This document shows positions 1,711-20,334 of a stretch of 21,119 nt of DNA, in pieces. The position numbers and the translations under genes are program-made. The stretch is from Bacilli bacterium (GTDB taxonomy: Bacteria; Bacillota_I; Bacilli_A; RF39; UBA660). Numbering within the stretch: position 1 is the first letter of the stretch; every line of letters starts with the position of its first letter. Under the pieces are notes generated by a model, which had not been told where the DNA came from, ran no database searches, and worked only from the letters and a program-made list of their open reading frames with translations. The stretch covers positions 1 through 21,119 of the forward strand of contig CAAHEM010000124.1 of NCBI GenBank assembly GCA_900772435.1, written 5' to 3'.

Positions 1711-2604
1711 ATGAATGAAAGTGATATTTATAATAGTATAAAAAGTACAACTTATGTATTATATAGTTTATATCAAAAACTAACAAACTTAGAAATTGAT
1801 GGAAAAGAAGCAACTAAAGAATATGAAGAAACTTTAAGAGCTATAGAAATATATACAACTCTTGAAGATAAATATTATGATATGTTGGAAGAACTTGGCA
1901 AAAAAGATGATGATCTTGTATTAAGATTAAATGCAATAACAGCATTAGAGTCACATGCGAATTTTGGCAGTGATAAGAAAATATGTGACCCATCATATAT
2001 AATTTTTCATAATTTTAAAAGTGAAGATGTCGTTCCTATGAGAATAACAAATAAACTATTTGAAGTGTTTCTACATAATAGAATTAGCGATGAAAATGAA
2101 TTAGAACGTAGACTATATGATGAATATGAAGCACAAAGAGATCAATATTTTGTAGATATATTAGATTCTATGTCAAAAGATAAAGATTTTAAAGCATATA
2201 AAAATATGCTTATAAGAGCAAAATATAAAGTTGCATTTATAAATAAGAGAAGAAAACCCAGAAAGCTAGAAAGTGATTTCTTTGCTGATACAGCTGCTGG
2301 CTTAACAAATGCTACTGAAGTTTCCGAATATGCTAAAAAGATGTATAAATTAAGTGAAAAATCAATAAATTCTCCATTAAATGCAAGAAGTATTCTATTA
2401 AGTAGTGCATTTATTAGAGCAAACTTACTTCAAATGGATGAAGTGTCTACTGAAGCATTAAGACTAATATTGCAAACAGGAGAAGCACTTGGAGATATAG
2501 AAGCACATGAAGGAAAGAAATTATTTGATAGAATAGTTGATTATCAAGACGAAGATAAAAAGACATTTAGAGACAAAGGAAACTCATTAAAAAGAAAATT
2601 TTAA
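1711..2604 (+). CDS. Helical protein of unknown function
   Basis: I do not recognise this 297-residue protein. It is rich in Glu, Lys and Asp and predicted to be almost entirely alpha-helical. There is no signal peptide and no membrane segment, so it is probably cytoplasmic. Heptad-like stretches near residues 15-65 and 125-175 could form coiled coils. A basic patch around residues 178-186 (NKRRKPRK) could bind nucleic acid or phospholipid, which is only a guess. The start is supported by AGAGGGGA 9 nt or less upstream of ATG 1711. It has its own consensus promoter and its own terminator, so it is a single-gene unit between pnp and the surface-protein gene. Three Cys at most, with no metal-binding pattern seen. 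Confidence 0.85.
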   Translation: MNESDIYNSIKSTTYVLYSLYQKLTNLEIDGKEATKEYEETLRAIEIYTTLEDKYYDMLEELGKKDDDLVLRLNAITALESHANFGSDKKICDPSYIIFHNFKSEDVVPMRITNKLFEVFLHNRISDENELERRLYDEYEAQRDQYFVDILDSMSKDKDFKAYKNMLIRAKYKVAFINKRRKPRKLESDFFADTAAGLTNATEVSEYAKKMYKLSEKSINSPLNARSILLSSAFIRANLLQMDEVSTEALRLILQTGEALGDIEAHEGKKLFDRIVDYQDEDKKTFRDKGNSLKRKF

Positions 2605-2630
2605 TAAACTCAAAAGAGTTTATTTTTTTT
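2603..2630 (+). terminator. Terminator after the 1711 gene
   Basis: Perfect 9-bp stem AATAAACTC (2603-2611) and GAGTTTATT (2616-2624), AAAA loop, then a T-run. The left arm overlaps the TAA stop at 2602-2604. Confidence 0.9.
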
Positions 2631-2640
2631 ATTTAAAATA

Positions 2641-2669
2641 TTGAACTTTTAAATAAAAGATGCTACAAT
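2641..2669 (+). promoter_or_regulatory. Promoter of the thioester-protein gene
   Basis: TTGAAC (2641-2646), 17-bp spacer, TACAAT (2664-2669) with an upstream TGC that makes an extended -10. The Shine-Dalgarno AAGGAG (2685-2690) lies 6 nt before ATG 2697. Confidence 0.7.
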
Positions 2670-2696
2670 TATTTTATAAAATAGAAGGAGATAGTT

Positions 2697-4313
2697 ATGA
2701 AAAAGAATATTATTAAATTGATTACAGTGTTATTTGTATCTATACTATTTATATTTGGAGTAGATGCATTATCTGTACCAAAAAATGAAGCAGCAAGAGT
2801 ACCAAGTAGAATACCTGAACCTGGATCAAAACTATATGCGACAGTACAAGAAGCATTTGATTTCTCAAAAATCAAGTTCTCAAATGGCATCGAAGAATTA
2901 CCAGGATATTCTAGTATGAGAAAAATAGTTTTCTCAGAAGGATTTGAATTTGATAAAACAAATGGAAAGTTTGGAGTAAAAGATGATTGGTTTACTGCAT
3001 ACTGTTTAGATGGTAGACTTAAATATCCAGAAGATGGGTTCTATTTTAGTCAATTTACTGGAAAAACAGATATAGCAGCAGTTGTTAAAAACATGGTTAA
3101 AACAGCATTATTAAATCAATCAAATTCAAGCAAAAAAATGTATGAATTATTAGGGCAATTAAGAGGTGCTGTAGGAATTGATGTTAGTTATGAAATGCCA
3201 TTAAAAGAAGATGGTACAAAAATGACTGATGAAGAATTAGGAAATAAAATGTTAGCTTCATCAACTACACCAATGGAAATAGAAATTACAGGTGTAGTAG
3301 CATCTAATGGAACAAGCACACCAATTGTAATTAATGCAGCTGAATTAAATGAAGCAGCAGGAACTACAGGAAGTACATTTAAATTAAAAGTATCATCATC
3401 AGTAGAAGATTCAAATATTATATTTAATCGTTATACAACTGAAGCATTAGATACAACACTAAATTACAATAGAGCATTATGGATGATAGAACATAGTTAT
3501 CCAACATTAAGCTTGCAAGAATCACTAACAGTAGCTGGAGCTGATTACAATAAATTAGTGACTGAAATCAAAGCACTAGATAGTACAGCAACAGATAACA
3601 ATATAGCAAGCCTAATTGAAAATTATGTTTATTCAACTGTTCAATATGCAGTATGGAAAGTAAATGATGGCGTTGACTATAATGGAAAAACTTTAGGAAA
3701 TGAATTAATAGGATCTGAAGAATTAAATAAACTTTATAAATATTTAATTCAAGATAAAGGAAATGGTTTCTATGCAAACTATGGACAAAGTCAATACACT
3801 GAAGATTTAACTATAGTAACACCAGAATCTAAAAAAGAAATTTATGAAGAAACAAACGATGTATATAAATATGGACCATATAAAGTAAATGGTGGTTTCC
3901 TAGAAACTGGTAAGATTTACTTAACAGTTAAAGATGCAGATAAAAATGGAGTTAAATTAGTTAATAAAGCCGGAGATGCAGTTAGTGAAGTAAACTCAGG
4001 AGAAGAATTCTTTGTATTAACTAATAAAAAATCTAAAATTGCTAATATAACTATTGAAGCAAGTGCTCCAGATGCTAAAATATTTGTTCCTACAGGAAAT
4101 AGAGGAAGAATATATTATGCAAATAGTGTAACTACTCAAAACGTTATTACTGGTGGAAAAATTGAAACAAAAGCAGTAAATGCAAACTTTGAATTATTAT
4201 TTAATCCAGGTACTGGAGTTGAAGATGTTGGAATGTTATTTATCATAACTTTAATAGCATTCACAGTTGGATACCTAGTATTAAGTCATAAAAATCAACC
4301 AGTTGAATTATAA
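2697..4313 (+). CDS. Cys-Gln thioester-domain surface protein, probable adhesin
   Basis: Secreted, surface-attached protein of 538 residues. An N-terminal signal peptide (KKNIIK, then hydrophobic residues 7-24) precedes a predicted thioester domain. Cys103 in FTAYCLD and Gln316 in STVQYAVW match the two motifs that form an internal Cys-Gln thioester in Gram-positive thioester-domain proteins; the intervening ALWMIEHSYPT (260-270) also fits that family. A beta-rich domain follows (about 393-500, beginning near YGPYKVNGG). The C-terminus has NPGTG (503-507), a hydrophobic segment (about 512-529) and a short tail with His-Lys, which resembles a sortase-type anchor or simply a membrane anchor. 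In studied relatives the thioester reacts covalently with host-surface amines. It is single-copy here, without the long stalk repeats many adhesins have. Own promoter and terminator. The family call is firm; the ligand is unknown. Confidence 0.85.
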   Translation: MKKNIIKLITVLFVSILFIFGVDALSVPKNEAARVPSRIPEPGSKLYATVQEAFDFSKIKFSNGIEELPGYSSMRKIVFSEGFEFDKTNGKFGVKDDWFTAYCLDGRLKYPEDGFYFSQFTGKTDIAAVVKNMVKTALLNQSNSSKKMYELLGQLRGAVGIDVSYEMPLKEDGTKMTDEELGNKMLASSTTPMEIEITGVVASNGTSTPIVINAAELNEAAGTTGSTFKLKVSSSVEDSNIIFNRYTTEALDTTLNYNRALWMIEHSYPTLSLQESLTVAGADYNKLVTEIKALDSTATDNNIASLIENYVYSTVQYAVWKVNDGVDYNGKTLGNELIGSEELNKLYKYLIQDKGNGFYANYGQSQYTEDLTIVTPESKKEIYEETNDVYKYGPYKVNGGFLETGKIYLTVKDADKNGVKLVNKAGDAVSEVNSGEEFFVLTNKKSKIANITIEASAPDAKIFVPTGNRGRIYYANSVTTQNVITGGKIETKAVNANFELLFNPGTGVEDVGMLFIITLIAFTVGYLVLSHKNQPVEL

Positions 4314-4336
4314 GAAGTTGAAAAACTTCTTTTTTT
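4312..4336 (+). terminator. Terminator of the thioester-protein gene
   Basis: Stem AAGAAGTT (4312-4319) and AACTTCTT (4324-4331), GAAA loop, T-run through 4336. It overlaps the TAA stop. Confidence 0.9.
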
Positions 4337-4367
4337 ATGCAGTGTTTTTTTAAAATACAGCTAATTA

Positions 4368-4373
4368 TATAAT
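4368..4373 (+). promoter_or_regulatory. -10 box of the comEA-comEC promoter
   Basis: TATAAT 25 nt before ATG 4399. The -35 region (about 4345-4350) is a T-run without a good match. Two purine-rich stretches follow: AGAGGGGAT (about 4374-4381) and AAAGGAG (4388-4394). Only the second is correctly spaced for the start. Confidence 0.5.
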
Positions 4374-4398
4374 AGAGGGGATATAAGAAAGGAGATAA

Positions 4399-5073
4399 AT
4401 GTTAATAGATAAAATAAAAAATATTACAAGTAAAAATGTAATCGGAATATTTACAATAGTTATATTAATAACTGGATACATAGCTATATTTATATATTTT
4501 AGTAATAAAATAGATACTAAAAATAAAGAACAAAATACAAGTGAAATAAGTATTATAGAAGAAGAACCAAAAGAAACTGAAAAGAAAGAGATTAAGGTTG
4601 ATATAAAAGGAAGTGTTAAAAAACCAGGAGTTTATACGTTAAAAGAAAATTCAAGAACTAATGATGCTATAATAGCTTCAGGAGGCTTACTTAAAAATGC
4701 AAATACAAGATTCACAAATCTATCAAAAGTATTAAATGATGGAGATGTTATAGTTGTATATTCAAACGAAGAAATAAAGAAAGCTCAAAAGGAAGAAAGA
4801 ATAGTAGTTGAGACACCATGTGTATGCGAAGAAGTAAAAAATGATAGTTGTTATAAAGAAGATGAAGAAAACAAAACAACATCTAAAATAAACATAAATA
4901 CTGCCACTATGAATGAATTAACTAAATTAAATGGAATTGGTGAATCAAAAGCAAAATTAATAATTGAATATAGAACAAAAAATGGTAAGTTTAAAGACAT
5001 AAAAGATATAATGAATATAAAAGGTATAAGTGAAACATTATTCTCTAAAATTAAGGAAAATATTACTGTGTGA
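4399..5073 (+). CDS. comEA: Competence protein ComEA, membrane-anchored DNA receptor
   Basis: Binds incoming double-stranded DNA at the outer face of the membrane and passes it to ComEC. 224 residues: a short basic N-terminus, one membrane helix (about 14-35), an acidic linker, an SLBB domain (about 67-122, VDIKGSVKKPGVYTL onward), a linker holding Cys141, Cys143 and Cys151, and a C-terminal tandem helix-hairpin-helix domain (164-224) with the typical ININTAT, LNGIGESKA and IKGI motifs. Length and domain order are normal for Firmicute ComEA. AAAGGAG lies 4 nt before the ATG. The 3' end overlaps the start of comEC, so the two are probably translationally coupled. Three Cys in the extracytoplasmic linker (CVC and a later C) are unusual and could form a disulfide. 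Confidence 0.95.
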   Translation: MLIDKIKNITSKNVIGIFTIVILITGYIAIFIYFSNKIDTKNKEQNTSEISIIEEEPKETEKKEIKVDIKGSVKKPGVYTLKENSRTNDAIIASGGLLKNANTRFTNLSKVLNDGDVIVVYSNEEIKKAQKEERIVVETPCVCEEVKNDSCYKEDEENKTTSKININTATMNELTKLNGIGESKAKLIIEYRTKNGKFKDIKDIMNIKGISETLFSKIKENITV

Positions 5074-7123
5074 TTACGTTTATTACATATTAGTTATTTT
5101 AGCTTTAATTTATGTTTTTATTTATAATAAAACTTTTACTATAAATAAGAATTATAATGGTAATACATTTTATTTAAAAATTAACAATTATATTATTGAT
5201 GGAAATAAATTATCTATGGATTTTGATAATTTAAAAAGTACTTATTATTTTCAAACTAAAGAAGAAATAGATTTATTTAAAAGTAATTATAATCTAGGCG
5301 ACACACTGAAAATAAATGGAACACTTGAAACACCAAATAATAATACTATACCAAATACATTTAATTATAAAGAATATTTATTCCATAAAAAAATAAAATA
5401 CATTTTAAAAATAGATAGTTTTAAAAAAATAGAAGAAAATAAAAATATATTATTAAAAATAAAAAACTTTCTATTAAAAAAAATCGAAAGAATAAAATAT
5501 AATAGTTATCTTTATGCATTTATATTGGGCAAATCTTCTTATATAGATATAGAAAGTTATAATAATTATAAAATAAATGGAGTGACACATCTATTTGCTT
5601 TATCTGGATTACATGTATCATTATTTTCATCAATAGTTTTATACATACTAAACAAATTAAAATTAAATGAGAAAGTAACATTTATTATAACAAGTATATT
5701 CTTAATATCATTTTCTTTTATAGCATCATTCACGCCATCTATTTTAAGAGCTACTATATTTTTCATATTATCTAGTATTAATAAGATATATTACTTTTTT
5801 ATAAAGCCAAAAAATCTTCTTTATTTAACATTTACAATTCTAATTTTTATTAATCCATTTTATATATTTGATATTGGATTTATTTTATCATTTACAATTA
5901 CTTTTTTTATATTGCTTTTAAATGAAGCTCTAACTATTAATAGTAATATAAAATCTATATTGGTGGTAAGTATTTTATCATTCTTTTCTAGTTTACCAAT
6001 AATAATAAATTTATCTTATGAAATAAATATAATAGGCTTTATAAATAATATATTTTTTATACCATTAGTTACTAATATAATTTTTCCATTCTCGTTAATA
6101 GTTGTAATAATACCAAAACTAAGCTTTATATTATTTATTTTAACAAGATTTATGGAAAATGTATCATCTTTAAGTAGTAACATTTTTAATATAACATTAT
6201 ATTTTGAAAGATTAAGCTATATTGAAATATTTATATATTATTTACTTTTGATATTATCGATAAAGAAAAATAAAAAATTATTATTTTTATTATTTATTTT
6301 TATATCCATATTATATATAAAACCAAGTCTCAATAAGAATACATATGTATATTTTATAGATGTAGGTCAAGGAGACTCAACTTTAATAGTTACAGAGAAT
6401 AATAAAAGTATATTAATAGATACTGGTGGTAAATTAAGTTATAAAACTGAATCATGGAAACAAAAGAATAAAGAATTTAATTTAATGTCATCATCAGTTA
6501 TACCTTTTTTTAAAAGTATAGGTCTTAAAAAGATAGATTATCTTTTAATTACTCATGGCGACTACGATCATATGGGAGAAGCGATTAATTTAGTAAAAAA
6601 CTTTAAAGTAGAGAAAGTAATCTTTAATTGTGGAGAGTTCAATGATTTAGAAAAGAAATTAATCAAGGTATTAGATAAAAAGAATACAAAATATTATTCA
6701 TGTATTAAAGAGTTAAATATAGATGATAACAAATTATATTTTTTAAACACAAAAGAATATGATAACGAAAATGATAATAGTAATGTTATTTATACAGAAC
6801 TTAATGGTTATAAATTTATGTTTATGGGAGATGCTTCGAGTACTACTGAAAAAGAAATATTAAATAAGTATAACTTACCAGATATTGATGTATTAAAAGT
6901 AGGCCACCATGGCTCTAAAACAAGTAGCAGCAAAACCTTTATAAATGAAATTAATCCTAGATATAGTGTTATTAGTGTTGGAAAAAATAATAGATATGGT
7001 CATCCGAATAAAGAAGTATTAAATACTTTAGAAGATTCAAAGATATATAGAACAGATCAAGATGGTAGTATTATTTTTAAGATTAAAAATAATAAATTAA
7101 AAATTGAGACTTGTAGTCCATAG
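5030..7123 (+). CDS. comEC: ComEC/Rec2 DNA-uptake channel
   Basis: Membrane channel that carries single-stranded DNA into the cell. About 697 residues: first membrane helix and OB-like (DUF4131) region (about 15-140), the polytopic Competence domain (about 155-415, including THLFALSGLHVS), and a C-terminal metallo-beta-lactamase domain (about 437-697). Motifs in the last are FIDVGQGDS (Asp444, Asp449), THGDYDHMG (His509, Asp511, Asp513, His514), MGDA and GHHGSKTS (His626, His627), consistent with an active nuclease domain that degrades the non-transported strand. The start is uncertain. The longest frame begins at GTG 5030 inside comEA, 5 nt after AAAAGG; a CTG at 5066, 8 nt after AAGGA, is a less likely alternative. 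Either way it overlaps comEA. The gene after it is not the usual holA but a nuclease pseudogene. Confidence 0.95.
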   Translation: MKHYSLKLRKILLCDYVYYILVILALIYVFIYNKTFTINKNYNGNTFYLKINNYIIDGNKLSMDFDNLKSTYYFQTKEEIDLFKSNYNLGDTLKINGTLETPNNNTIPNTFNYKEYLFHKKIKYILKIDSFKKIEENKNILLKIKNFLLKKIERIKYNSYLYAFILGKSSYIDIESYNNYKINGVTHLFALSGLHVSLFSSIVLYILNKLKLNEKVTFIITSIFLISFSFIASFTPSILRATIFFILSSINKIYYFFIKPKNLLYLTFTILIFINPFYIFDIGFILSFTITFFILLLNEALTINSNIKSILVVSILSFFSSLPIIINLSYEINIIGFINNIFFIPLVTNIIFPFSLIVVIIPKLSFILFILTRFMENVSSLSSNIFNITLYFERLSYIEIFIYYLLLILSIKKNKKLLFLLFIFISILYIKPSLNKNTYVYFIDVGQGDSTLIVTENNKSILIDTGGKLSYKTESWKQKNKEFNLMSSSVIPFFKSIGLKKIDYLLITHGDYDHMGEAINLVKNFKVEKVIFNCGEFNDLEKKLIKVLDKKNTKYYSCIKELNIDDNKLYFLNTKEYDNENDNSNVIYTELNGYKFMFMGDASSTTEKEILNKYNLPDIDVLKVGHHGSKTSSSKTFINEINPRYSVISVGKNNRYGHPNKEVLNTLEDSKIYRTDQDGSIIFKIKNNKLKIETCSP

Positions 7124-7135
7124 AAAGGAGTAGAT

Positions 7136-8017
7136 ATGAATTATTATAATGAGATAAAAAATGAATTAATAAATAATAAGATAAATAGAAAAGTTAAAAG
7201 TTATTCGATCAATAAAAGTGATTTAAATACTTACTATAATGTTGGCAAATTATTATTAGATGCAGGTAATCAATATGGAGAAAGTATTATTAAAGAGTAT
7301 TCATTAAGATTGACTGAAGATTTAGGCCCAGGGTATAGTCAAAGAAATTTAAAAAATATGAGACAATTCTATAAAGTTTCTCAAAAGTGGCAGACACTGT
7401 CTGCCAAATTAAGTTGGAGTCATTATTGTGAAATTCTTTAGTTTGATGATAATAAATTTCAATACTATATTAAAATAACTGAATTAAATAATCTATCTAT
7501 TAGACAGTTAAGAAAAAGAATAAAGTCGAATAAATATGAAAGACTTTCGGAATTCACTAAAAATAAATTAATAGAGCAAAAAGAATCTAATATTGTTGAT
7601 TTCGTAAAGAATCCAATTTTGATTAAAAATAGCAATAACTATGATATATTTTCAGAGAAAGTATTACAAAAATTAATTTTGGAAGATATCGAAAAATTTT
7701 TAGATGAATTAGGAAATGGATTTATATTTATTAAAAGTGAGTATCTCATTAAGTTAAATGATAGATATAACTATATAGACTTACTTCTATATAATATTAA
7801 GTATAAATGTTATGTAGTAGTAGAATTAAAGGTTACTGAACTCAAGAAAGAACATACAGGTCAAATTATGACTTATATGAATTACATTGATAAAAATGTA
7901 AAAACAATTGACGAAAGTGATACAGTAGGAATCATTATTTGTAAGCAAGACAATGAATATGTTATAAAATATTGTTCAGATGATAGAATAATTGCTAGAG
8001 AATATGAATTAGTATGA
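7136..8017 (+). pseudogene. DUF1016/YhcG-type PD-(D/E)XK nuclease gene with one in-frame TAG
   Basis: A single reading frame of 294 codons interrupted only by TAG at 7439-7441 (codon 102). The first part carries the DUF1016 N-terminal domain (GKLLLDAGNQYGES, YSQRNLKNMRQFY, LSWSHYCEIL). The frame continues after the stop without any shift into family-typical sequence (LSIRQLRKRIKSNKYERL) and the C-terminal nuclease domain, with Asp215 in YIDLLLYN and Glu230-Leu-Lys232 in VVVELKV forming a PD-(D/E)XK core. The stop falls where the family has one ordinary residue. A TTG at 7619 opens a second possible frame but has no ribosome site, so I treat the gene as broken or read through. AAAGGAG sits 5 nt before ATG 7136, 12 nt after comEC. 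YhcG proteins are often linked to mobile DNA and restriction loci; their exact role is not settled. Confidence 0.85.
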
Positions 8018-8023
8018 TATAAT
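8015..8023 (+). promoter_or_regulatory. Extended -10 promoter of the 8043 gene
   Basis: TGATATAAT, whose TGA is also the stop codon of the preceding frame. The -10 hexamer ends 19 nt before ATG 8043, leaving a leader of roughly 13 nt that starts at AGGATGTGAT. No good -35. The 17 bases at 8007-8023 recur exactly at 9653-9669. Confidence 0.55.
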
Positions 8024-8042
8024 ATTTATAGGATGTGATAAC

Positions 8043-8990
8043 ATGTTTAAAAATGTTGAAGAGTTGAGAGATTTAATTAAGCAGGGAAAAACAAACGAAG
8101 AAATCATAAAAAGTCAAATTGAATATTTAAATTCAGATAATTATTGTATATCTAAACATGAAACAATAAAGGAAAATGATACAGATATGATTATTTTTCA
8201 TGAAGGATTTATAAACAAAAACATGGATGTTTCTTTTACAGGAAATAGAATAGTTGATATTGTTTATTATCATGATAATACAGAAATATATGATGCTATA
8301 ATTAATTTAATTAGAGATAATATGGATAAAAAAGGATTTAGTATAAACAGTATGATGAGAATAATTAGAAATTATTTTTCTATAAATGAAGATTCACCAT
8401 ATAAACAATTATATGATTTTTATAAAGAAAAACTTCCTAATCAACCATATTTTTTGAGAGAGAATCTGCCATATATTATAATGAGTTATAAATGTTCTAA
8501 CTTTGATGGTGATATTACAGAATTTGGTAAAGCTTATTTATACAATATTGCTTTTTATAATACAAAAGATGAAAAATACAGGCAGGAATCTGAAAGATAC
8601 AGAAATTCTATTGATTGGGATAAATTAGATGAGATAGGGAATATAAGATTAAATTTATCAGATATAAAAGGAGCTGGTTTAGCTGCATGTACAGAATATG
8701 CATTTTTAGAACAAAATATTTTAAGTTTTCTTGGATATGAAGTATATATGGTTGGAGGTAAAATAAAAAAAGAAAATGGACAAGAAGAAGCTCACAATTT
8801 CAATGTTATTAAGAGAACAAATGGTAATTTTGAAATTATTGATACAGCTCAAGTAACAAAATGTATATTACCGAATATTAATACTTCAGAAGAATTAATA
8901 GGATTGAAAGATATAGAAGCAATAAATGGATATGGGGAAAGAATTTATTATTATATTGGTAGTCAAAAAACAATTAATTTAAAACATTAA
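8043..8990 (+). CDS. Transglutaminase-like protein (Cys-His-Asp)
   Basis: 315-residue protein without signal peptide or membrane segment. The C-terminal third has the layout of a papain-like transglutaminase/cysteine-protease fold: Cys216 in AACTEYA at a helix start, His251 in EAHNFNV, Asp267 in EIIDTAQ, with beta-strand-like stretches between (GYEVYMVGG). The N-terminal 200 residues are not recognised and look mainly helical. Such domains act as proteases, peptide cross-linkers or amidases; the reaction here cannot be told from sequence. It has its own extended -10 promoter with a very short leader, and a strong terminator. It sits between a broken nuclease gene and a truncated ComEC-like fragment, which suggests a region of gene gain and loss. 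Start chosen at ATG 8043 because of AGGA 9 nt upstream. Confidence 0.6.
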   Translation: MFKNVEELRDLIKQGKTNEEIIKSQIEYLNSDNYCISKHETIKENDTDMIIFHEGFINKNMDVSFTGNRIVDIVYYHDNTEIYDAIINLIRDNMDKKGFSINSMMRIIRNYFSINEDSPYKQLYDFYKEKLPNQPYFLRENLPYIIMSYKCSNFDGDITEFGKAYLYNIAFYNTKDEKYRQESERYRNSIDWDKLDEIGNIRLNLSDIKGAGLAACTEYAFLEQNILSFLGYEVYMVGGKIKKENGQEEAHNFNVIKRTNGNFEIIDTAQVTKCILPNINTSEELIGLKDIEAINGYGERIYYYIGSQKTINLKH

Positions 8991-9047: not shown

Positions 9048-9614
9048 ATGCATAAACGTATGTCACCACACGGAGATGCAGATCATGCAGGGTACGCTTT
9101 AGAATTGTTAAATAATTTTAAAGTAATAAATAAATATACAAATAAAGGAAGAAAAAACACTTTAGAAAAGAAAATAAATATTAATTCTTTAGAAACAAAA
9201 TATATGAGTATTGATAACATAGAAATTTATTCATTAAATAACAATATTTATAATAATGAAAATAAAGATAGTTTAGTTCTTTTAATTAAAATATATAATA
9301 AGAATTTTTTATTCATGGCAGATGCAGACAAAAAAGTAGAAAAAACTATAATAGAAAAATATAACTTAAAAGATATAGATTTCTTAAAAGTAGGTCATCA
9401 TGGTTCTAAAACAAGTACTGGTGTATCATTTATAAACAAAATTAATCCCAAATATTCTATTATTTCAGTTGGAAAAAACAATAAATTTGGTCATCCAAAT
9501 ACTGAAACTTTAGAAACATTAAAAAATACTAAAATAATAAGAATAGATAAAGCAGGTACAATAAAAATAACTATTAATAAAAATGAATCATTAATAAACA
9601 CATATTCACCATAA
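9048..9614 (+). pseudogene. 5'-truncated ComEC-type metallo-beta-lactamase domain
   Basis: 188 codons that align with the last ~190 residues of the ComEC at 5030-7123. They begin at the first metal motif (SPHGDADHAG, compare THGDYDHMG), include FMADAD and KVGHHGSKTS, share ISVGKNN and GHPN, and end in the same Ser-Pro-stop. Everything upstream is missing: no FIDVGQGDS strand, no membrane domain. No Shine-Dalgarno precedes ATG 9048, which lies 12 nt after the T-run of a strong terminator. It is therefore most likely the surviving 3' end of a second comEC or a related hydrolase. The two copies have diverged clearly at DNA level, so this is not a recent duplication. A functional mini-enzyme cannot be excluded, since the metal-binding residues that remain are intact. 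No hairpin terminator is seen after it. Confidence 0.7.
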
Positions 9615-9689: not shown

Positions 9690-10280
9690 ATGAATACAAA
9701 GAGTATTGAAGAGTATATTTATTCTTTAGAAAATCCAAAAGATTGTAAAGAATTAACAATAAATAAGTTAAGTATTACAGGAGAAATTCAAACAGTTGAT
9801 TTAAATGATTTATATAATTTTCAGAAGTTAGAAAGATTATCTTTATGTAATATGACTATCGGAGAAAACGATTTATTAATTTTAGAAAAACTAGAAAATT
9901 TAAAAGTATTAAAGCTGTATAATTGTGATTTTTCTAATGATAATTTATATGCATATTTTAATAGTATAGATATTGAAGAATTAGTTATAGATAATACTGA
10001 AATAAATTTTAATTCTATTAAAAAGAAATATAATAAAGTAATAGCTAAAAATGTAGCACATGTATATGATATAGATTGTATTGAACTAGATATAAGTAAA
10101 GCAACAACAGTTGACTTTCAAAAGTTAGAATTTGAGAAATATGAAAAACTCATAGTAAGTAAATCACAATATTCATCACAAAAAAATATTTTTACTGAAT
10201 ATAAAAATAAAATTGAACTAGTAGTTAAAGATGATTATTATGATGAATTAGGAGACTTATATGAAGAAAATAAAGATTAA
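9690..10280 (+). CDS. Leucine-rich-repeat-like protein
   Basis: 196-residue protein without signal peptide. Residues about 18-115 show a degenerate leucine-rich pattern with a period near 22-24: LNDLYNFQKLERLSLCN, LEKLENLKVLKLYNCD, then IEELVIDNTEI. This suggests a small solenoid that binds a partner protein. The C-terminal part (about 115-196) is mixed alpha/beta and not recognised. Start: ATG 9690, 9 nt after AGGAG; an in-frame TTG at 9687 would add one Met. Its last 20 bases overlap the start of the next gene, so the two are very likely co-translated and may work as a pair. The LRR call is by eye and moderate. Confidence 0.6.
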   Translation: MNTKSIEEYIYSLENPKDCKELTINKLSITGEIQTVDLNDLYNFQKLERLSLCNMTIGENDLLILEKLENLKVLKLYNCDFSNDNLYAYFNSIDIEELVIDNTEINFNSIKKKYNKVIAKNVAHVYDIDCIELDISKATTVDFQKLEFEKYEKLIVSKSQYSSQKNIFTEYKNKIELVVKDDYYDELGDLYEENKD

Positions 10281-11430
10281 TTCTCCATTAACTAATGAAA
10301 CAATACAAAGAATAAATGGAATGGCACAAAAAGAACGTATTATCATAGTTTTTAATAATACCAAAGGTTTAAAACCAGATGATTTAATGAAACTTAACTC
10401 AAATGTCACAATAAGTATTATAGGTGGTTTAGACACTAGAAAAGAAAAGTTCAATAATGAACACTATCAAAAAAGAACATACTATTCTCCAAAAGAGTTA
10501 ATTAGCATTATTAATTTCTTTGAAAAAATAGAAAGACAACTTAATCCACTATGGAATGAACTAGAAAAATGTATGTTTGTATATCAAAAGATTTGCGAAT
10601 ACTCAAATTATGATGAATGCGAATATAACGGAAGAGATGCTGCAAGAAACCTATTAGGGGTAATAACCGGAAAAAGTGTTTGTGTTGGTTATGCTATGAT
10701 ATTTAAAGAAGCTATGGATAGAATTAATATAAAATGTTACTATCAAAATAGAGAAGGCCATCACGGCTGGAATATCGTTGAATTAGAAGGAAAACAATAT
10801 GCAATTGAATTAACTTGGGATACTTATAATAAGAAAGATAATAAATGCGGCTTTAGAAATTTTTGTAGAGAGGATAGACAAAAATTTTATTCAAATAAAC
10901 ATCATGATATAAGTGCTGAAAAAGATGAACAAGAATTTGATGTAAAAGAATGTCCGGTTCCAGTATTACAAAATGCTTTAAGAAAGATAAGCCAAGAGAG
11001 AATAAAAAGAATACCAGTTGAAAATCGTAATGGTGTAATGACATGCTCGATTGTTGGGCAACCTATAGTTATTAAGAATAATATACCTTATTTGCAAAAT
11101 GGAAATCCTTCAAATACATTCATTAGAACTGATGGAAGCGGTTTTATAATAATACCAACAAATAAATCAAATAATCGCATTAGAGAATATATATATTTAA
11201 TATATATTCCTACAAGTCAAATAGTCCAAGCCACAAGAATATATAGTGAAATGGATTTATTAACAAACGATCAGGAACTAAGAAGTAATGTTACAAATAA
11301 TTTATTATCAAATCAAAGAGTAGCAAGAAAAATAAATGGATACAATGGTTATGTAGGATATGTTGAAAAAGGTAGCACGTTAAAATACTATAGTCCTGAT
11401 GTCGAGTCATCACTAAATATACATAGATAA
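10261..11430 (+). CDS. Transglutaminase-like protein with C-terminal domain
   Basis: 389-residue cytoplasmic-looking protein. Residues about 95-195 form a transglutaminase-like core: Cys141 in GKSVCVGYAMIFKEAM, His168 in EGHHGWNIV and the strand YAIELTWDTYN. In related bacterial proteins this last strand usually reads HVDVTWDD and its first Asp is the third catalytic residue; here that position is Glu183, with Asp187 kept after the Trp. Activity is therefore possible but not certain. Residues about 230-389 are an extra, beta-rich, unrecognised domain. Start at ATG 10261 with AGGAG 6 nt upstream, overlapping the LRR gene by 20 bp; the ADP-ribosylglycohydrolase follows 28 bp later. The arrangement suggests a protein-modification operon in which the LRR protein may recruit a substrate. 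That role is inference. Confidence 0.65.
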   Translation: MKKIKINSPLTNETIQRINGMAQKERIIIVFNNTKGLKPDDLMKLNSNVTISIIGGLDTRKEKFNNEHYQKRTYYSPKELISIINFFEKIERQLNPLWNELEKCMFVYQKICEYSNYDECEYNGRDAARNLLGVITGKSVCVGYAMIFKEAMDRINIKCYYQNREGHHGWNIVELEGKQYAIELTWDTYNKKDNKCGFRNFCREDRQKFYSNKHHDISAEKDEQEFDVKECPVPVLQNALRKISQERIKRIPVENRNGVMTCSIVGQPIVIKNNIPYLQNGNPSNTFIRTDGSGFIIIPTNKSNNRIREYIYLIYIPTSQIVQATRIYSEMDLLTNDQELRSNVTNNLLSNQRVARKINGYNGYVGYVEKGSTLKYYSPDVESSLNIHR

Positions 11431-11458: not shown

Positions 11459-12232
11459 ATGCTAGGAGCAATATATGGAGATAAAGTAGGAAGCATATAT
11501 GAATTTGAACAATTAAAAGGAATAAAAAGTATTAGTCCCGATGTATTAATACAATCAAATTCTTTTTATAGTGACGATACAATAGAAACAATCGCAGTCG
11601 CAGATGCAATTATCAATAATAAAGATTATGAAGAAACATTAAGAGAATATATATTAAAAAATATTGATTATAGTCCTAACTTTAAACCATACTTTAAAAA
11701 TCCCTTTTCGCCAGGAACAATGAAATGGGCAAAAGGAATAGGCAAGAATACAAGCATTGGTAATGGAGCAATGATGAGAATATCACCAGTAGGTTATTTA
11801 TTCGATAAAGAAGAAGATGTAATAGAGCAAGCTAGGCTAGTAACAATACCATCACATAATTCTAAGGAAGCTATAGACTCAGCAACCATAATAGCATTAA
11901 TGATTTATTACTTTAGAAATGGGTTAGGCAAAGAAGAAGTATTTCATAAATTAAACTTATTAGTTAAATATGAACCATTTAAGAAATTTAATACAACATG
12001 TAGTGAAACATTAAATAATTGTCTTTATGCTTTATATAATTCAACATCATTTGAAGAAGCAATAAGAAACACACTCTTAATGGGAGGAGATACAGATACT
12101 AATTGCTGTATTGTAGGGTCTGTCGCAGAAGTAATGCATGGTATGAATATTTCACAAATAAAAGGTGCCGCAACTGGCTTACCAAAAGAATACATAAAAA
12201 TACTAAAAAAAGCATATGAATCAATCAATTAA
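11459..12232 (+). CDS. ADP-ribosylglycohydrolase (DraG family)
   Basis: Predicted to remove ADP-ribose from modified proteins or nucleic acids using two Mg2+ ions. 257 residues, near the normal family length, all-helical. Motifs are complete and in order: GDKVGS (7-12), SDDT (38-41) for the first metal-binding set, GNGAMMRISPVG (101-112), PSHNS (131-135) and GGDTDT (209-214) for the second metal-binding set. No signal peptide, so it acts in the cytoplasm. Start supported by AAAGGTGAT 3-4 nt before ATG 11459. It follows the transglutaminase-like gene by 28 bp and is probably co-transcribed. An ADP-ribosyltransferase-like protein is encoded about 5.5 kb downstream, so this enzyme could reverse or give immunity to that modification; a general housekeeping role in ADP-ribose turnover is equally possible. 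Confidence 0.9.
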   Translation: MLGAIYGDKVGSIYEFEQLKGIKSISPDVLIQSNSFYSDDTIETIAVADAIINNKDYEETLREYILKNIDYSPNFKPYFKNPFSPGTMKWAKGIGKNTSIGNGAMMRISPVGYLFDKEEDVIEQARLVTIPSHNSKEAIDSATIIALMIYYFRNGLGKEEVFHKLNLLVKYEPFKKFNTTCSETLNNCLYALYNSTSFEEAIRNTLLMGGDTDTNCCIVGSVAEVMHGMNISQIKGAATGLPKEYIKILKKAYESIN

Positions 12233-16826: not shown

Positions 16827-17702
16827 GTGGAAAAAATAATTAGTTTTAAGTATAAAGACATTTATAATAAATTTATTGATAGTTATAAAAAAATACATAT
16901 TAATCCATTTCATGAAATTAGTGAATATGAGTTAGAAAAAGGTTTATTTAATAGAAGAATGATGTTTGGTTTACCATCTCTAAAGGATAGTGATAGTCTA
17001 ATATATGAGTTTATTACTTTAAATGGTGAACCTAAAATAATAAAATTTGATAAGAATAAAACTGAAAGAGAAGAAAAACCTTTTGATTATAATATGTACT
17101 TATATGGAGATACTGGAAAATATGAGTTTATAGATGATATACTTATATATCGTCATAGTTCCGTACAATCACAGTTTAAAGATAAAATTGAAAAAGCCAT
17201 CGAAACGCTTGAAAAAGAAGATTTATCACAAATAAAATCAATTATAATTGACTTAAGAGAAAATACAGGCGGAAACTCAAGACTTAATAAATTGTTAATT
17301 GATTTTCTAAAAAAACATAATGATAAGAAATTAATATGCTTAACAGATTATAGAATATTTTCAGCAGGTAGATATGCTCTTATTGACTTAATAAGTCTTG
17401 GAGCAATCACTATAGGAGAAGAAATAAGCACACCAATTAATTGTTATGGAGAAAGTAACTGGGTACTTTTTGATAAATATAGTTTTTCTATTTCAGGTTG
17501 TTATTTTGATCCATCTATTAATTATTCATCAAGAAATAAAGATGATTTCTTAAAAACAAAAACAGATGAAATATTAAAACCACATATTTTTAAACCGGAT
17601 ATATATGTAGAACAAAGTAGAGAAGACTTTATAAAAGGCAATGATACTATTTTAGATTATGCAATTAATTATTGTAAAGAGCAAAATAGAATATTAAATT
17701 AA
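16827..17702 (+). CDS. S41-family peptidase homologue, cytoplasmic
   Basis: 291 residues. Family signs: IIIDLRENTGGNSRLN (139-154), the nucleophile region DYRIFSAGRYA with Ser179, the following IGEEIST (196-202), and a typical S41 ending with PDIYV, a GND motif and an ILDYAI helix (about 257-280). Unlike processing proteases of the CtpA type there is no signal peptide and no PDZ domain. The Lys that pairs with Ser in CtpA, expected some 25 residues after it near Gly-Lys-Gly, is not evident; the segment here reads INCYGESNW. Activity is therefore doubtful, or uses another dyad. Start is uncertain: GTG 16827 is immediately downstream of GAAGG and only 11 nt after the -10; a non-standard ATA/ATT start a few codons later, better spaced from AAGGTGG, is an alternative. 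Confidence 0.7.
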   Translation: MEKIISFKYKDIYNKFIDSYKKIHINPFHEISEYELEKGLFNRRMMFGLPSLKDSDSLIYEFITLNGEPKIIKFDKNKTEREEKPFDYNMYLYGDTGKYEFIDDILIYRHSSVQSQFKDKIEKAIETLEKEDLSQIKSIIIDLRENTGGNSRLNKLLIDFLKKHNDKKLICLTDYRIFSAGRYALIDLISLGAITIGEEISTPINCYGESNWVLFDKYSFSISGCYFDPSINYSSRNKDDFLKTKTDEILKPHIFKPDIYVEQSREDFIKGNDTILDYAINYCKEQNRILN

Positions 17703-17712
17703 TATATTAGAA

Positions 17713-17741
17713 TTGATATAGTATATTAGTTATGATAAAAT
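17713..17741 (+). promoter_or_regulatory. Promoter of the ADP-ribosyltransferase-like gene
   Basis: TTGATA (17713-17718), 17-bp spacer, TAAAAT (17736-17741) with upstream TGA (extended -10). AAGGAG (17755-17760) lies 8 nt before ATG 17769. No terminator separates it from the S41-like gene, so read-through is also possible. Confidence 0.6.
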
Positions 17742-17768
17742 AAAAATATAAAACAAGGAGAAGTAATT

Positions 17769-19151
17769 ATGTCAAAAGAAATATCGTACACAAAAAGTGA
17801 GTTAGATTCACTATCAGCATATGGTGGAAGAGGAAGAAGAGAAAGAAAAAACACTAGTTTATCAGAATATCTAGGACTAATAAGCAATAATGAAATTAAT
17901 AATTTTTTACTTTACTTAACAAATAAAAATATAACAGTTCAACCAGTTGAAATTGAGGGATTAACATTAGATGATTATAGAATAATGCTTAGAGATATAG
18001 ATAATTTATTCTCAGTTGCCTGCAAATATGGATTCACTCATGAACTTCCTGAAAGCATTAAAAGAGGTGACCCATATGCAGGTAGAATGTTATCAAACGG
18101 TACTAATAATTGGCTATCAGATAAAATGCTATCATGTTCAACGGGAGATGTTAGTCAATTCTCATATACGACAGGTAGAAACGGAAGAATAACAGATTCA
18201 ACAATTATAACATTTTCATTTAGTGAAAAAGATAGAAGAGAAAGAAAGATACCTTTTATAAAAATTAACGATATATTAAAAGAGGGAGATGTCTTTAATG
18301 GTGAAAAAGAAATTATTTTACCACCTTTTTTTGAAACAAGAATAACAGACAAAAAAGAAAAAGTACCAGCTCCATACGGACATGATTTTTTTAGATACTT
18401 TTATTCAGTTGATTTTAGTTCAAGAATGAATAAACCAGAAAAAGAAATTGAAACACTTAGTGATGAAGAATTACAAAGCTGTATTGATGCAATAAATGCA
18501 GTTACACCTAAAACTATAACAAAAGATTTTGAAACAAGTGAAGAGAAAAAAAATTTAGAGCATGCAAAAAGTATACTTAGAAATTATATACAAACTAGAT
18601 TTCATCAAATATATAACCAAACATTATTTGAAGTATTAGATAGAGAAGAATTAAGCGATTACTTCTATAGAGAAGAATTAAGCAAATTAAATTCAAAACA
18701 TTTCGAACTATGTGACAATGCACGACTAGCTAGATATATGGCGGATGATAGAGTGTTTGAACTAGAATTAGATAACTACTATAGAAATATATTTCCAAAT
18801 ATAAGTCATGCTGAAAGAATAAATAGAGAATTAGGATTCGTATGTAGAAATCCTAATTATTTCAAAATTAGTGATACAGAATTTAGAGACAGAGACAATT
18901 TAGAGTTGAAAGTTCATGGAAGAGTAGAAGATAGAGAAAATAGAATGGGATTAAAAGTAAATGAATTTAGAGTTATGGAACAAACAATAGCTGAAATAAG
19001 TAAAGCAAATATACCAGAAAACTTTCCAACAGACTACTACACAAGAACATTAGAAACTATTGAAAAAAGAAACTTGAATATATTTAGAAGTAGACAGAAA
19101 AAAGAAGCAATGGAACAAACTAATGACACTGAAATAGGAATGAGACTTTAA
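17769..19151 (+). CDS. Putative ADP-ribosyltransferase-like protein
   Basis: 460 residues, no signal peptide or membrane segment. Residues about 68-195 carry a pattern like the R-S-E class of mono-ADP-ribosyltransferases: Arg99 in ESIKRGDP (first strand, usually tyrosine-Arg-Gly), Ser122/Ser124 in DKMLSCSTGD (second strand, usually STS), and Glu179-Lys-Glu181 followed by IILPP (usually ExE followed by a leucine-rich strand and a Pro/Arg-Gly turn). Spacing and surrounding predicted strands fit, but the match is by eye and the first strand is atypical. An Arg-rich patch GGRGRRERK (19-27) and a helical, highly charged C-terminal half (about 225-460) are unrecognised; the latter could hold a regulatory or immunity function. 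The nearby ADP-ribosylglycohydrolase (11459) and downstream holin/M23 pair make an effector role attractive. If the ART reading is wrong, it is a protein of unknown function. Confidence 0.45.
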   Translation: MSKEISYTKSELDSLSAYGGRGRRERKNTSLSEYLGLISNNEINNFLLYLTNKNITVQPVEIEGLTLDDYRIMLRDIDNLFSVACKYGFTHELPESIKRGDPYAGRMLSNGTNNWLSDKMLSCSTGDVSQFSYTTGRNGRITDSTIITFSFSEKDRRERKIPFIKINDILKEGDVFNGEKEIILPPFFETRITDKKEKVPAPYGHDFFRYFYSVDFSSRMNKPEKEIETLSDEELQSCIDAINAVTPKTITKDFETSEEKKNLEHAKSILRNYIQTRFHQIYNQTLFEVLDREELSDYFYREELSKLNSKHFELCDNARLARYMADDRVFELELDNYYRNIFPNISHAERINRELGFVCRNPNYFKISDTEFRDRDNLELKVHGRVEDRENRMGLKVNEFRVMEQTIAEISKANIPENFPTDYYTRTLETIEKRNLNIFRSRQKKEAMEQTNDTEIGMRL

Positions 19152-19390: not shown

Positions 19391-19411
19391 AAAATACAAT
19401 AGGTGATACAT

Positions 19412-19732
19412 ATGAATATTGAATTAATAAAAGAACTACTTTTAATAGCAGTATCATCAAGTATAATAAGCACAGCTTTTGTACAAAAGATTAAAGGCAC
19501 ATCGTTAATTAAATGTAGTGAATGTTTGATATATATATCATTCTTAATTTCTATGAGTTTTGGTATTTTATTTACGTTATCTTTTACTGAGTATGCATTA
19601 AGTGATTCTGTATGGGTAGGGCTATTTAGTTTTATTGGAGCAGATTCTCTTTATAAAACATTCGAAGATAAACTATTTAAATCATTTAATAAAATAAATG
19701 AAGTAAAAGAAATAGAAAGAAAAAACTTATGA
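19412..19732 (+). CDS. Holin-like small membrane protein
   Basis: 106 residues with membrane segments at about 8-24, 38-58 and 66-78, then a charged C-terminal tail (KLFK to ERKNL) that should face the cytoplasm. Size, helix number and tail are as in phage holins, which make holes that let a cell-wall hydrolase reach the wall. The next gene is an M23 endopeptidase whose ATG overlaps this stop (ATGA, 19729-19732), the usual holin-endolysin arrangement. Start: ATG 19412 after AGGTGAT; a GTG at 19403 would fall inside the ribosome site. No other phage genes surround it, so this may be a domesticated lysis pair rather than a prophage. Cys35 and Cys38 lie near the start of the second helix. Holin function is inferred from topology and context, not from a motif. 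Confidence 0.6.
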   Translation: MNIELIKELLLIAVSSSIISTAFVQKIKGTSLIKCSECLIYISFLISMSFGILFTLSFTEYALSDSVWVGLFSFIGADSLYKTFEDKLFKSFNKINEVKEIERKNL

Positions 19733-20334
19733 TAAAACTATATTTTCCTTGCAAATACGTAAGTTTTACAAGAGGATACTCATCTAGTCATAAAGGATTA
19801 GATATGGCATGGAACTCTAAATATGGAGGACCTAATCATAATATATTAGCTCCAGCAGATGGAATAGTAAAAAAAGTATTAAAGAACTATAACAAAACAG
19901 ATAAAACTAATAAAACATATGGAAACTACGTAATAATAGATCATGGCAATAATATTGAAACAGTTGTTGCACATCTAAAATATAATACAGTAAGAGTTAA
20001 AAAAGGTGATAAAGTAAAAAAAGGACAAGTACTAGGCGTTATGGGTAATACTGGGTATTCAAAAGGTACACACTGTCACTATGAAGTAAAAATAAATAAT
20101 GAAAAGGTAGATCCACTAAAATACACATACTTAGAAAAAGAAAATATATTAAATGACGCAACATCTAAAGAATATAAAATATTAAAGATTATAGAAGAAC
20201 CCAAAAAAGAAGAAAAAATCGAAGAAAAAACTGAAGAGAAAATATTAGAAAAAGTAAAATTTGAATATATATGTCCTAAAACAGGTATTTATAAAATTAA
20301 ACTCATGGAAAACGAAAAGATTCTAATCATTTAG
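19729..20334 (+). CDS. M23-family (LytM-type) endopeptidase, probable endolysin
   Basis: Zinc peptidase that cuts peptidoglycan cross-bridges. 201 residues. Catalytic domain about 15-130 with all metal and catalytic residues: His21 and Asp25 in HKGLDMA, His82 in VVAHL, and His115-Cys-His117 in THCHYEV; the KKGDKVKKGQVLG loop is typical. It is followed by a Glu/Lys linker (about 157-176) and a short C-terminal piece (KFEYICPKTGIYKIKL) that may be a small wall-binding or SH3-like segment. There is no signal peptide, so export would need the holin-like protein encoded just upstream with a 4-bp overlap. It lacks the coiled-coil or LysM parts of division-type M23 proteins, which supports a phage-derived endolysin. 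The 3' end overlaps the convergent rnhC by 12 bp. Confidence 0.85.
   Translation: MIKLYFPCKYVSFTRGYSSSHKGLDMAWNSKYGGPNHNILAPADGIVKKVLKNYNKTDKTNKTYGNYVIIDHGNNIETVVAHLKYNTVRVKKGDKVKKGQVLGVMGNTGYSKGTHCHYEVKINNEKVDPLKYTYLEKENILNDATSKEYKILKIIEEPKKEEKIEEKTEEKILEKVKFEYICPKTGIYKIKLMENEKILII

Follow-up and report, generated by a model that had tools for sequence, protein, structure and literature searches.

An open reading frame (ORF) at positions 17769..19151 of the forward strand of contig CAAHEM010000124.1 from a Bacilli bacterium that probably lived in an animal gut (assembly GCA_900772435.1), the whole 21,119-nucleotide stretch of which is called the window below, encodes a 460-residue protein (P0001) that, judged by predicted fold and class, is almost certainly a divergent ADP-ribosyltransferase (ART) of the R-S-E type. 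The assignment as a stand-alone divergent ART is based on its homologues and on the predicted fold. By homology the ART unit belongs with RTas1808, a numbered accessory protein of the UG24 class of defence-associated reverse transcriptase (DRT) operons. The best overall explanation, which is favoured without being certain, is a free-standing, cytosolic mono-ART of the conflict or defence type that combines an ART domain with a C-terminal extension. A cytosolic mono-ART is the most likely reading because the protein contains no hydrophobic signal or membrane segment and carries both the ExE signature and the full set of catalytic residues.

An earlier note on this DNA, made from the letters alone, had pointed to R99-G100, S122-C-S124-T125 and E179-K-E181-IILPP, and all three motifs were found at these positions in the translation. 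By alignment and model, Arg99, the R of R-S-E (18063..18065, + strand), lies in strand 96-100, the STS-like motif Ser122-Cys-Ser124 (18132..18140, +) in strand 121-124, and the ExE motif Glu179-Lys-Glu181 (18303..18311, +) ends in E181, which opens strand 181-184; R99, S122-S124 and E181 belong to the part of the model that aligns with solved ARTs. Taken alone, the R-S-E motif is close to what chance would give. When the window protein was shuffled 2000 times, the tight pattern R-x(18-28)-S-x-[ST]-x(48-62)-E-x-E turned up in 516 of the products and a loose version in 1367, while among 14 other window ORFs tested the tight pattern was found in none and the loose one in a single ORF. Weak as it is alone, the motif becomes significant because its five residues are conserved in the relatives. 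This was read from a 25-row alignment (A9) of the window protein, three rows 86-99% identical to it and 21 more distant proteins, which mixes the close family with the RTas1808 group. R99 is Arg in 24 rows, the remaining one (P0013) having a gap and no R region; S122, E179 and E181 are kept in 25 of 25 rows, and S124 is Ser in 22 and Thr in 3. With the three near-copies removed (22 rows), R99, S122, S124, E179 and E181 rank 7, 9, 22, 14 and 15 of 294 positions, and none of 200000 random residue sets of the same letters was as conserved. Poor conservation of Arg99, Ser124 and Glu181 in homologues had been named in advance as a ground for giving up the ART reading; all three are conserved.

Two structure models were computed. 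A full-length AlphaFold2 model on four alignment rows gave no fold (predicted local distance difference test score, pLDDT, 36.8), and a second model of residues 1-294 on the 25-row alignment is confident and has an ART fold. The structure prediction and fold search proposed by the earlier note returned a confident fold with ART matches, and this fold together with the conserved R/S/E residues supports the ART inference made there. That note had placed the domain at residues 60-215. The unit is longer than that: the predicted ART fold spans about residues 1-225 (17769..18443, +), with structure-match rows over model residues 2-220, and is followed by a helical tail at residues 232-293 (18462..18647, +) that, by model and profile match, lies mostly within the RTas1808 match. 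A charged extension, residues 295-460 (18651..19148, +), completes the protein. Its charge, described before as that of a helical C-terminal half, was borne out by composition (35.5% K/R/D/E); the helices come from the low-confidence full-length model only. Part of the extension is common to P0007 (31% identity over 87 aa). Most of the nearest solved folds in the structure search belong to exotoxins and effectors, two toxin-immunity pairs (8za7 and 6dre) among them, and the matches in BFVD include phage Alt- and ModA-like ARTs. The best PDB sequence match of the family profile is the ART domain of SpvB (E 0.045, not significant alone). The protein has the features of the R-S-E superfamily: a predicted ART fold, a conserved Arg on an early strand, S-x-[ST], and [EQ]-x-E with the putative catalytic Glu.

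Three database searches brought 20 further proteins (P0002-P0021), of which P0020 and P0021 are marginal (E 0.13 and 0.18). The cluster P0002 is 99% identical to the window protein and represents 180 member sequences. A profile scan of genome contigs with a four-row alignment found nothing, and one with a 16-row alignment found four loci: L001, in a Bacilli metagenome-assembled genome (MAG) from a water-deer rectum sample, L002, in another Bacilli MAG, and L003 and L004, in the isolates Cuneatibacter caecimuris and Faecalicatena faecalis, respectively. P0001 itself has no significant match in Pfam (best E 0.067), NCBIfam (0.013) or PHROG (0.14), nor any that passes a curated cut-off where one exists. 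Compared with PF03496 (ADPrib_exo_Tox), it gives no match, and two of the 25 relatives, the distant P0020 and P0021, match below the cut-off (best E 0.0018). Ten Pfam families match weakly among the 25 rows, and the three lowest E-values all belong to ART models: PF18760 (0.00029, one row), PF03496 (0.0018, two rows) and PF01129 (0.0032, one row). MIC19_MIC25 likewise has a weak match in 2 of the 25 rows.

The strongest link to a named family is that to RTas1808. The PADLOC profile RTas1808 (PDLC03798) matches residues 9-281 of P0001 over profile positions 4-272 of 278 (E 1.1e-6, PADLOC rows carrying no curated cut-off) and matches other members of the family too. Profile-profile comparison by hhalign aligned the close family alone (A7) with the RTas1808 group (A8) over 254 columns, helical tail included (E 3.1e-21). 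The first 281 residues are homologous over nearly the whole profile, with R, S-x-S and E-x-E in common. Differences from RTas1808 are the signature ACKYG before the Arg, which is the window protein's own, the lack of any adjacent reverse transcriptase (RT) or RTas1299 seen, and residues 295-460, which lie beyond the 278-position profile. Among the RTas1808-type proteins, R, both S and the second E are kept in 11 of 11 rows; L023 has Q in place of the first E, as read from the alignment. A comparison by hhalign also joined the RTas1808 group clearly to three PF03496 proteins, which come from genomes of the same family as L003's genome (E 6.4e-6, probability 84.9%; none of 100 shuffles scored as well); L031, a PF03496 match with stops inside, was left out of alignment A11. 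On the present evidence, RTas1808 itself is an ART family, and its numeric name suggests that this nature was not recognised when PADLOC was built. A literature search over titles and abstract beginnings turned up none that deals with RTas1808 or with an ART of UG24 systems; the ART link is not claimed to be unpublished.

The gene rows of the relatives point to immunity. In L003 (9620-14515), matches to RTas1808 (E 2.4e-106), RTas1299 (E 1.9e-58) and RT_UG24 (E 0) stand in a row, and homologues of the three genes occur in unchanged order in L004 (9623-14533), L020 (3371-8044) and L021 (3602-8395). An RT of the L003 type is thus present at 4 of the 11 loci examined, L003 included; one of a different kind would have escaped. 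The HD-CE domain lies in the L003 RT itself and, in L020, in a 1038-aa protein just past the RT. It also occurs at two loci with an RTas1808-type ART and no UG24-type RT: in a 1509-aa protein of the L023 row (2178-8149), where a SLATT_5-like protein (E 4.4e-4, below cut-off) is encoded between the RTas1808-type gene and the HD-CE gene, and weakly in a 1139-aa neighbour in L022 (7429-11822). RTas1808 and SLATT model matches are found within one protein in P0020. The L023 and L022 rows may represent an RT-free sister system. As RTas1808 proteins carry ART residues, an ART may be what kills in the UG24 DRT class.

From these data a mechanism can be proposed. The window protein is very probably active as an enzyme, and chances are about even that it serves as a conflict or defence effector, a role suggested because its ART unit is homologous to RTas1808 of the UG24 operons. 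The N-terminal domain would bind NAD+, which would be split with E181 as the catalytic glutamate, and ADP-ribose would be passed to a target. In characterised ARTs an ExE motif goes with arginine acceptors, and arginine may be the acceptor here. Such an effector would lie dormant until an invader signal arrives and would then modify a host or phage component, so that growth is halted. In UG24 operons, the RT/HD-CE protein would pass this signal on; in the orphan version of the window the extension 295-460 may stand in as a sensor, target-binding or inhibitory part. A bolder proposal, held only tentatively, is that RTas1808 is the ART effector of operons with a UG24 RT and HD-CE, and that the window gene is a self-contained descendant minus the RT, which senses the invader or inhibits itself via its extension. 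It would then form a one-gene, NAD-using abortive-infection system of gut Bacilli.

The family is rare and patchy. With the A7 profile, matches were found in 3 of 385 genomes in the order of L001's genome (one being a centre genome and one marginal), or 2 of 385 without L010, whose match (E 1e-3, 51 aa) has stops inside and was treated as chance. The match at L011 (E 5.1e-4), which falls within a presumably LysM-like ORF of 272 aa, was treated in the same way. At family level the tallies were 3 of 291 for L002's genome, a set that overlaps the order-level one, and 2 of 145 for L001's genome. For L003's genome, RTas1808 was found in 2 of 391 genomes at class level and 7 of 397 at family level; none of 14 control genomes had it. 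These genome groups overlap and include the centre genomes, and the tallies are not additive. The pyruvate phosphate dikinase (PPDK) gene of the window matched 205 of the 231 genomes sampled from L001's order, with DNA identity reaching 78%, which makes that order of Bacilli the most likely source of the window. In the eight best-matching genomes, XerD and thymidine kinase stand with PPDK in three. The stretch read behind PPDK, which in L047 ends with the contig after 0.9 kb, holds nothing related to the S41-like, ART, holin or peptidase ORFs in any of the eight. Because the ART and its neighbour ORFs are absent there, the locus fits an accessory position, though the genomes compared are of other species.

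Several observations weigh against a defence-type ART. The Foldseek template modelling (TM) scores are modest, about 0.3-0.4 by query length, and none of the curated libraries (Pfam, NCBIfam, PHROG) names the window protein an ART. The close family alone did not match the three PF03496 proteins significantly (E 0.11, 2 of 100 shuffles as good), and the mixed alignment A9 did so weakly (E 0.0059, probability 6.3%, 0 of 100 shuffles). At 7 of the 11 loci examined no relative of the L003 RT is present. No RT, HD-CE or SLATT match, and no UG24 RT as the mark of a UG24 DRT system, was found in the window, where Pfam was run on 19 of 20 distinct ORFs and part of the scan was limited to matches to 1e-5; the defence link is by homology only. 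It is nevertheless highly improbable that the protein is something other than an ART, with a fold match produced by a thin alignment. The bare motif arises in a quarter of shuffles, the four-row model gave no fold, and the ART-PolyVal (PF18760) match of P0021 (residues 238-325) falls outside that protein's R-S-E motifs. Against this stand the confident 25-row model with which the listed fold matches agree, the five conserved residues, the profile comparison that joins the RTas1808 group to PF03496 proteins, and the match of the family profile to SpvB, not significant alone.

Other roles for an ART have to be considered. A toxin delivered to nearby bacteria or to host cells, in the manner of interbacterial ART toxins that come with an ADP-ribosylhydrolase or another immunity protein, would agree with the exotoxins and toxin-immunity pairs among the nearest folds and with an ADP-ribosylglycohydrolase (ARH) gene in the same window (11459-12232; PF03747, E 3.8e-31), 5.5 kb upstream of the ART. 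This is unlikely, given that the protein lacks a hydrophobic signal or membrane segment, that its ART fold begins near residue 2, leaving no recognised trafficking domain ahead of it and no other domain matched, and that PF03747 does not co-occur with ART genes in 30 genomes. It was found in none of the four genomes with a stand-alone ART (G001, G002, G068, G825) and in 6 of 24 others from the order. Two more ART-positive genomes differ, G1084 lacking it and G1224 having it. By these counts an ART-ARH pair is unsupported. The two genes are separated by those for a XerD-like recombinase, thymidine kinase and PPDK and by the S41-like ORF; the ART is flanked directly by the S41-like and holin-like ORFs. 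Compared with C3-like and iota/VIP2-like R-S-E ARTs (2a78, 5wtz, 1qs2), the window protein has no signal segment or cell-binding partner seen and is too distant in sequence for Pfam. Its extension is C-terminal, whereas that of iota/VIP2-type ARTs is N-terminal. Somewhat less probable still is a prophage-borne ART that reprogrammes the host, as T4 Alt and ModA do, and was left in a prophage remnant. The fold resembles these phage ARTs, and a holin-like gene and an endolysin-like peptidase follow (19403-20334), but tblastn of P0001 and P0011 found no match in 50,697 phage records, profile scans of viral contigs gave no confirmed relative, and no head, tail or terminase family was seen in the window ORFs scanned. 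Plasmid records likewise gave no tblastn match for P0001 or P0020. A mono-ART that serves the cell's own regulation or metabolism, with no conflict role, is about as improbable as a delivered toxin. In its favour, the protein is probably cytosolic, and no defence partner was recognised beside the window gene or its close relatives in L002 and in L001/L027, where the contig ends soon after the gene. The patchy distribution, the absence of the gene behind PPDK in the eight best-matching of 231 sampled genomes and the homology to a protein of RT operons argue against it.

Upstream of the ART gene, a ribosome-binding-site-like AAGGAG (17755..17760, +) lies 8 nt before the ATG. A promoter-like TTGATA-17-TAAAAT with TG preceding the second hexamer (17713..17741, +) is a consensus match only, and promoter-like sites in this region are fewer than the shuffle average. 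The S41-like neighbour (16827..17702, +; partial peptidase S41 match, PF03572, E 9.9e-6) ends 66 nt before the ART start. Downstream, an A118-like holin (PF06946, E 3e-6) and a metallopeptidase with endolysin-type PHROG matches, presumably of the M23 type, could be a prophage remnant or a cell-lysis pair. Elsewhere in the window, DUF1016_N and YhcG_C nuclease domains occur in two ORFs (7136-7441 and 7619-8017), as if one DUF1016/YhcG gene had been broken. An ORF at 9048-9614, with no Pfam match to 1e-5, resembles the end of the metallo-beta-lactamase part of ComEC (5030-7123) and is perhaps a partial duplication. A transglutaminase-type model (NF045980) matches the ORF at 10261-11430 with E 3e-11, which is below its cut-off. 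That at 8043-8990 has no significant family match and contains a Cys-containing motif, seen by eye also in an ORF near the ART relative of L009.

With this protein comes a family of ARTs that has no name in Pfam, NCBIfam or PHROGs, and what adds to its interest is the connection with UG24/HD-CE systems. Being small and tractable, the stand-alone form lends itself to work on ART chemistry without an RT, and the homology gives RTas1808 a proposed enzymatic function. If RTas1808 is indeed the killing part, UG24 systems would become ADP-ribosylation-based immunity, beside DarTG, a known example that appears in the reference list of PMC13092281.
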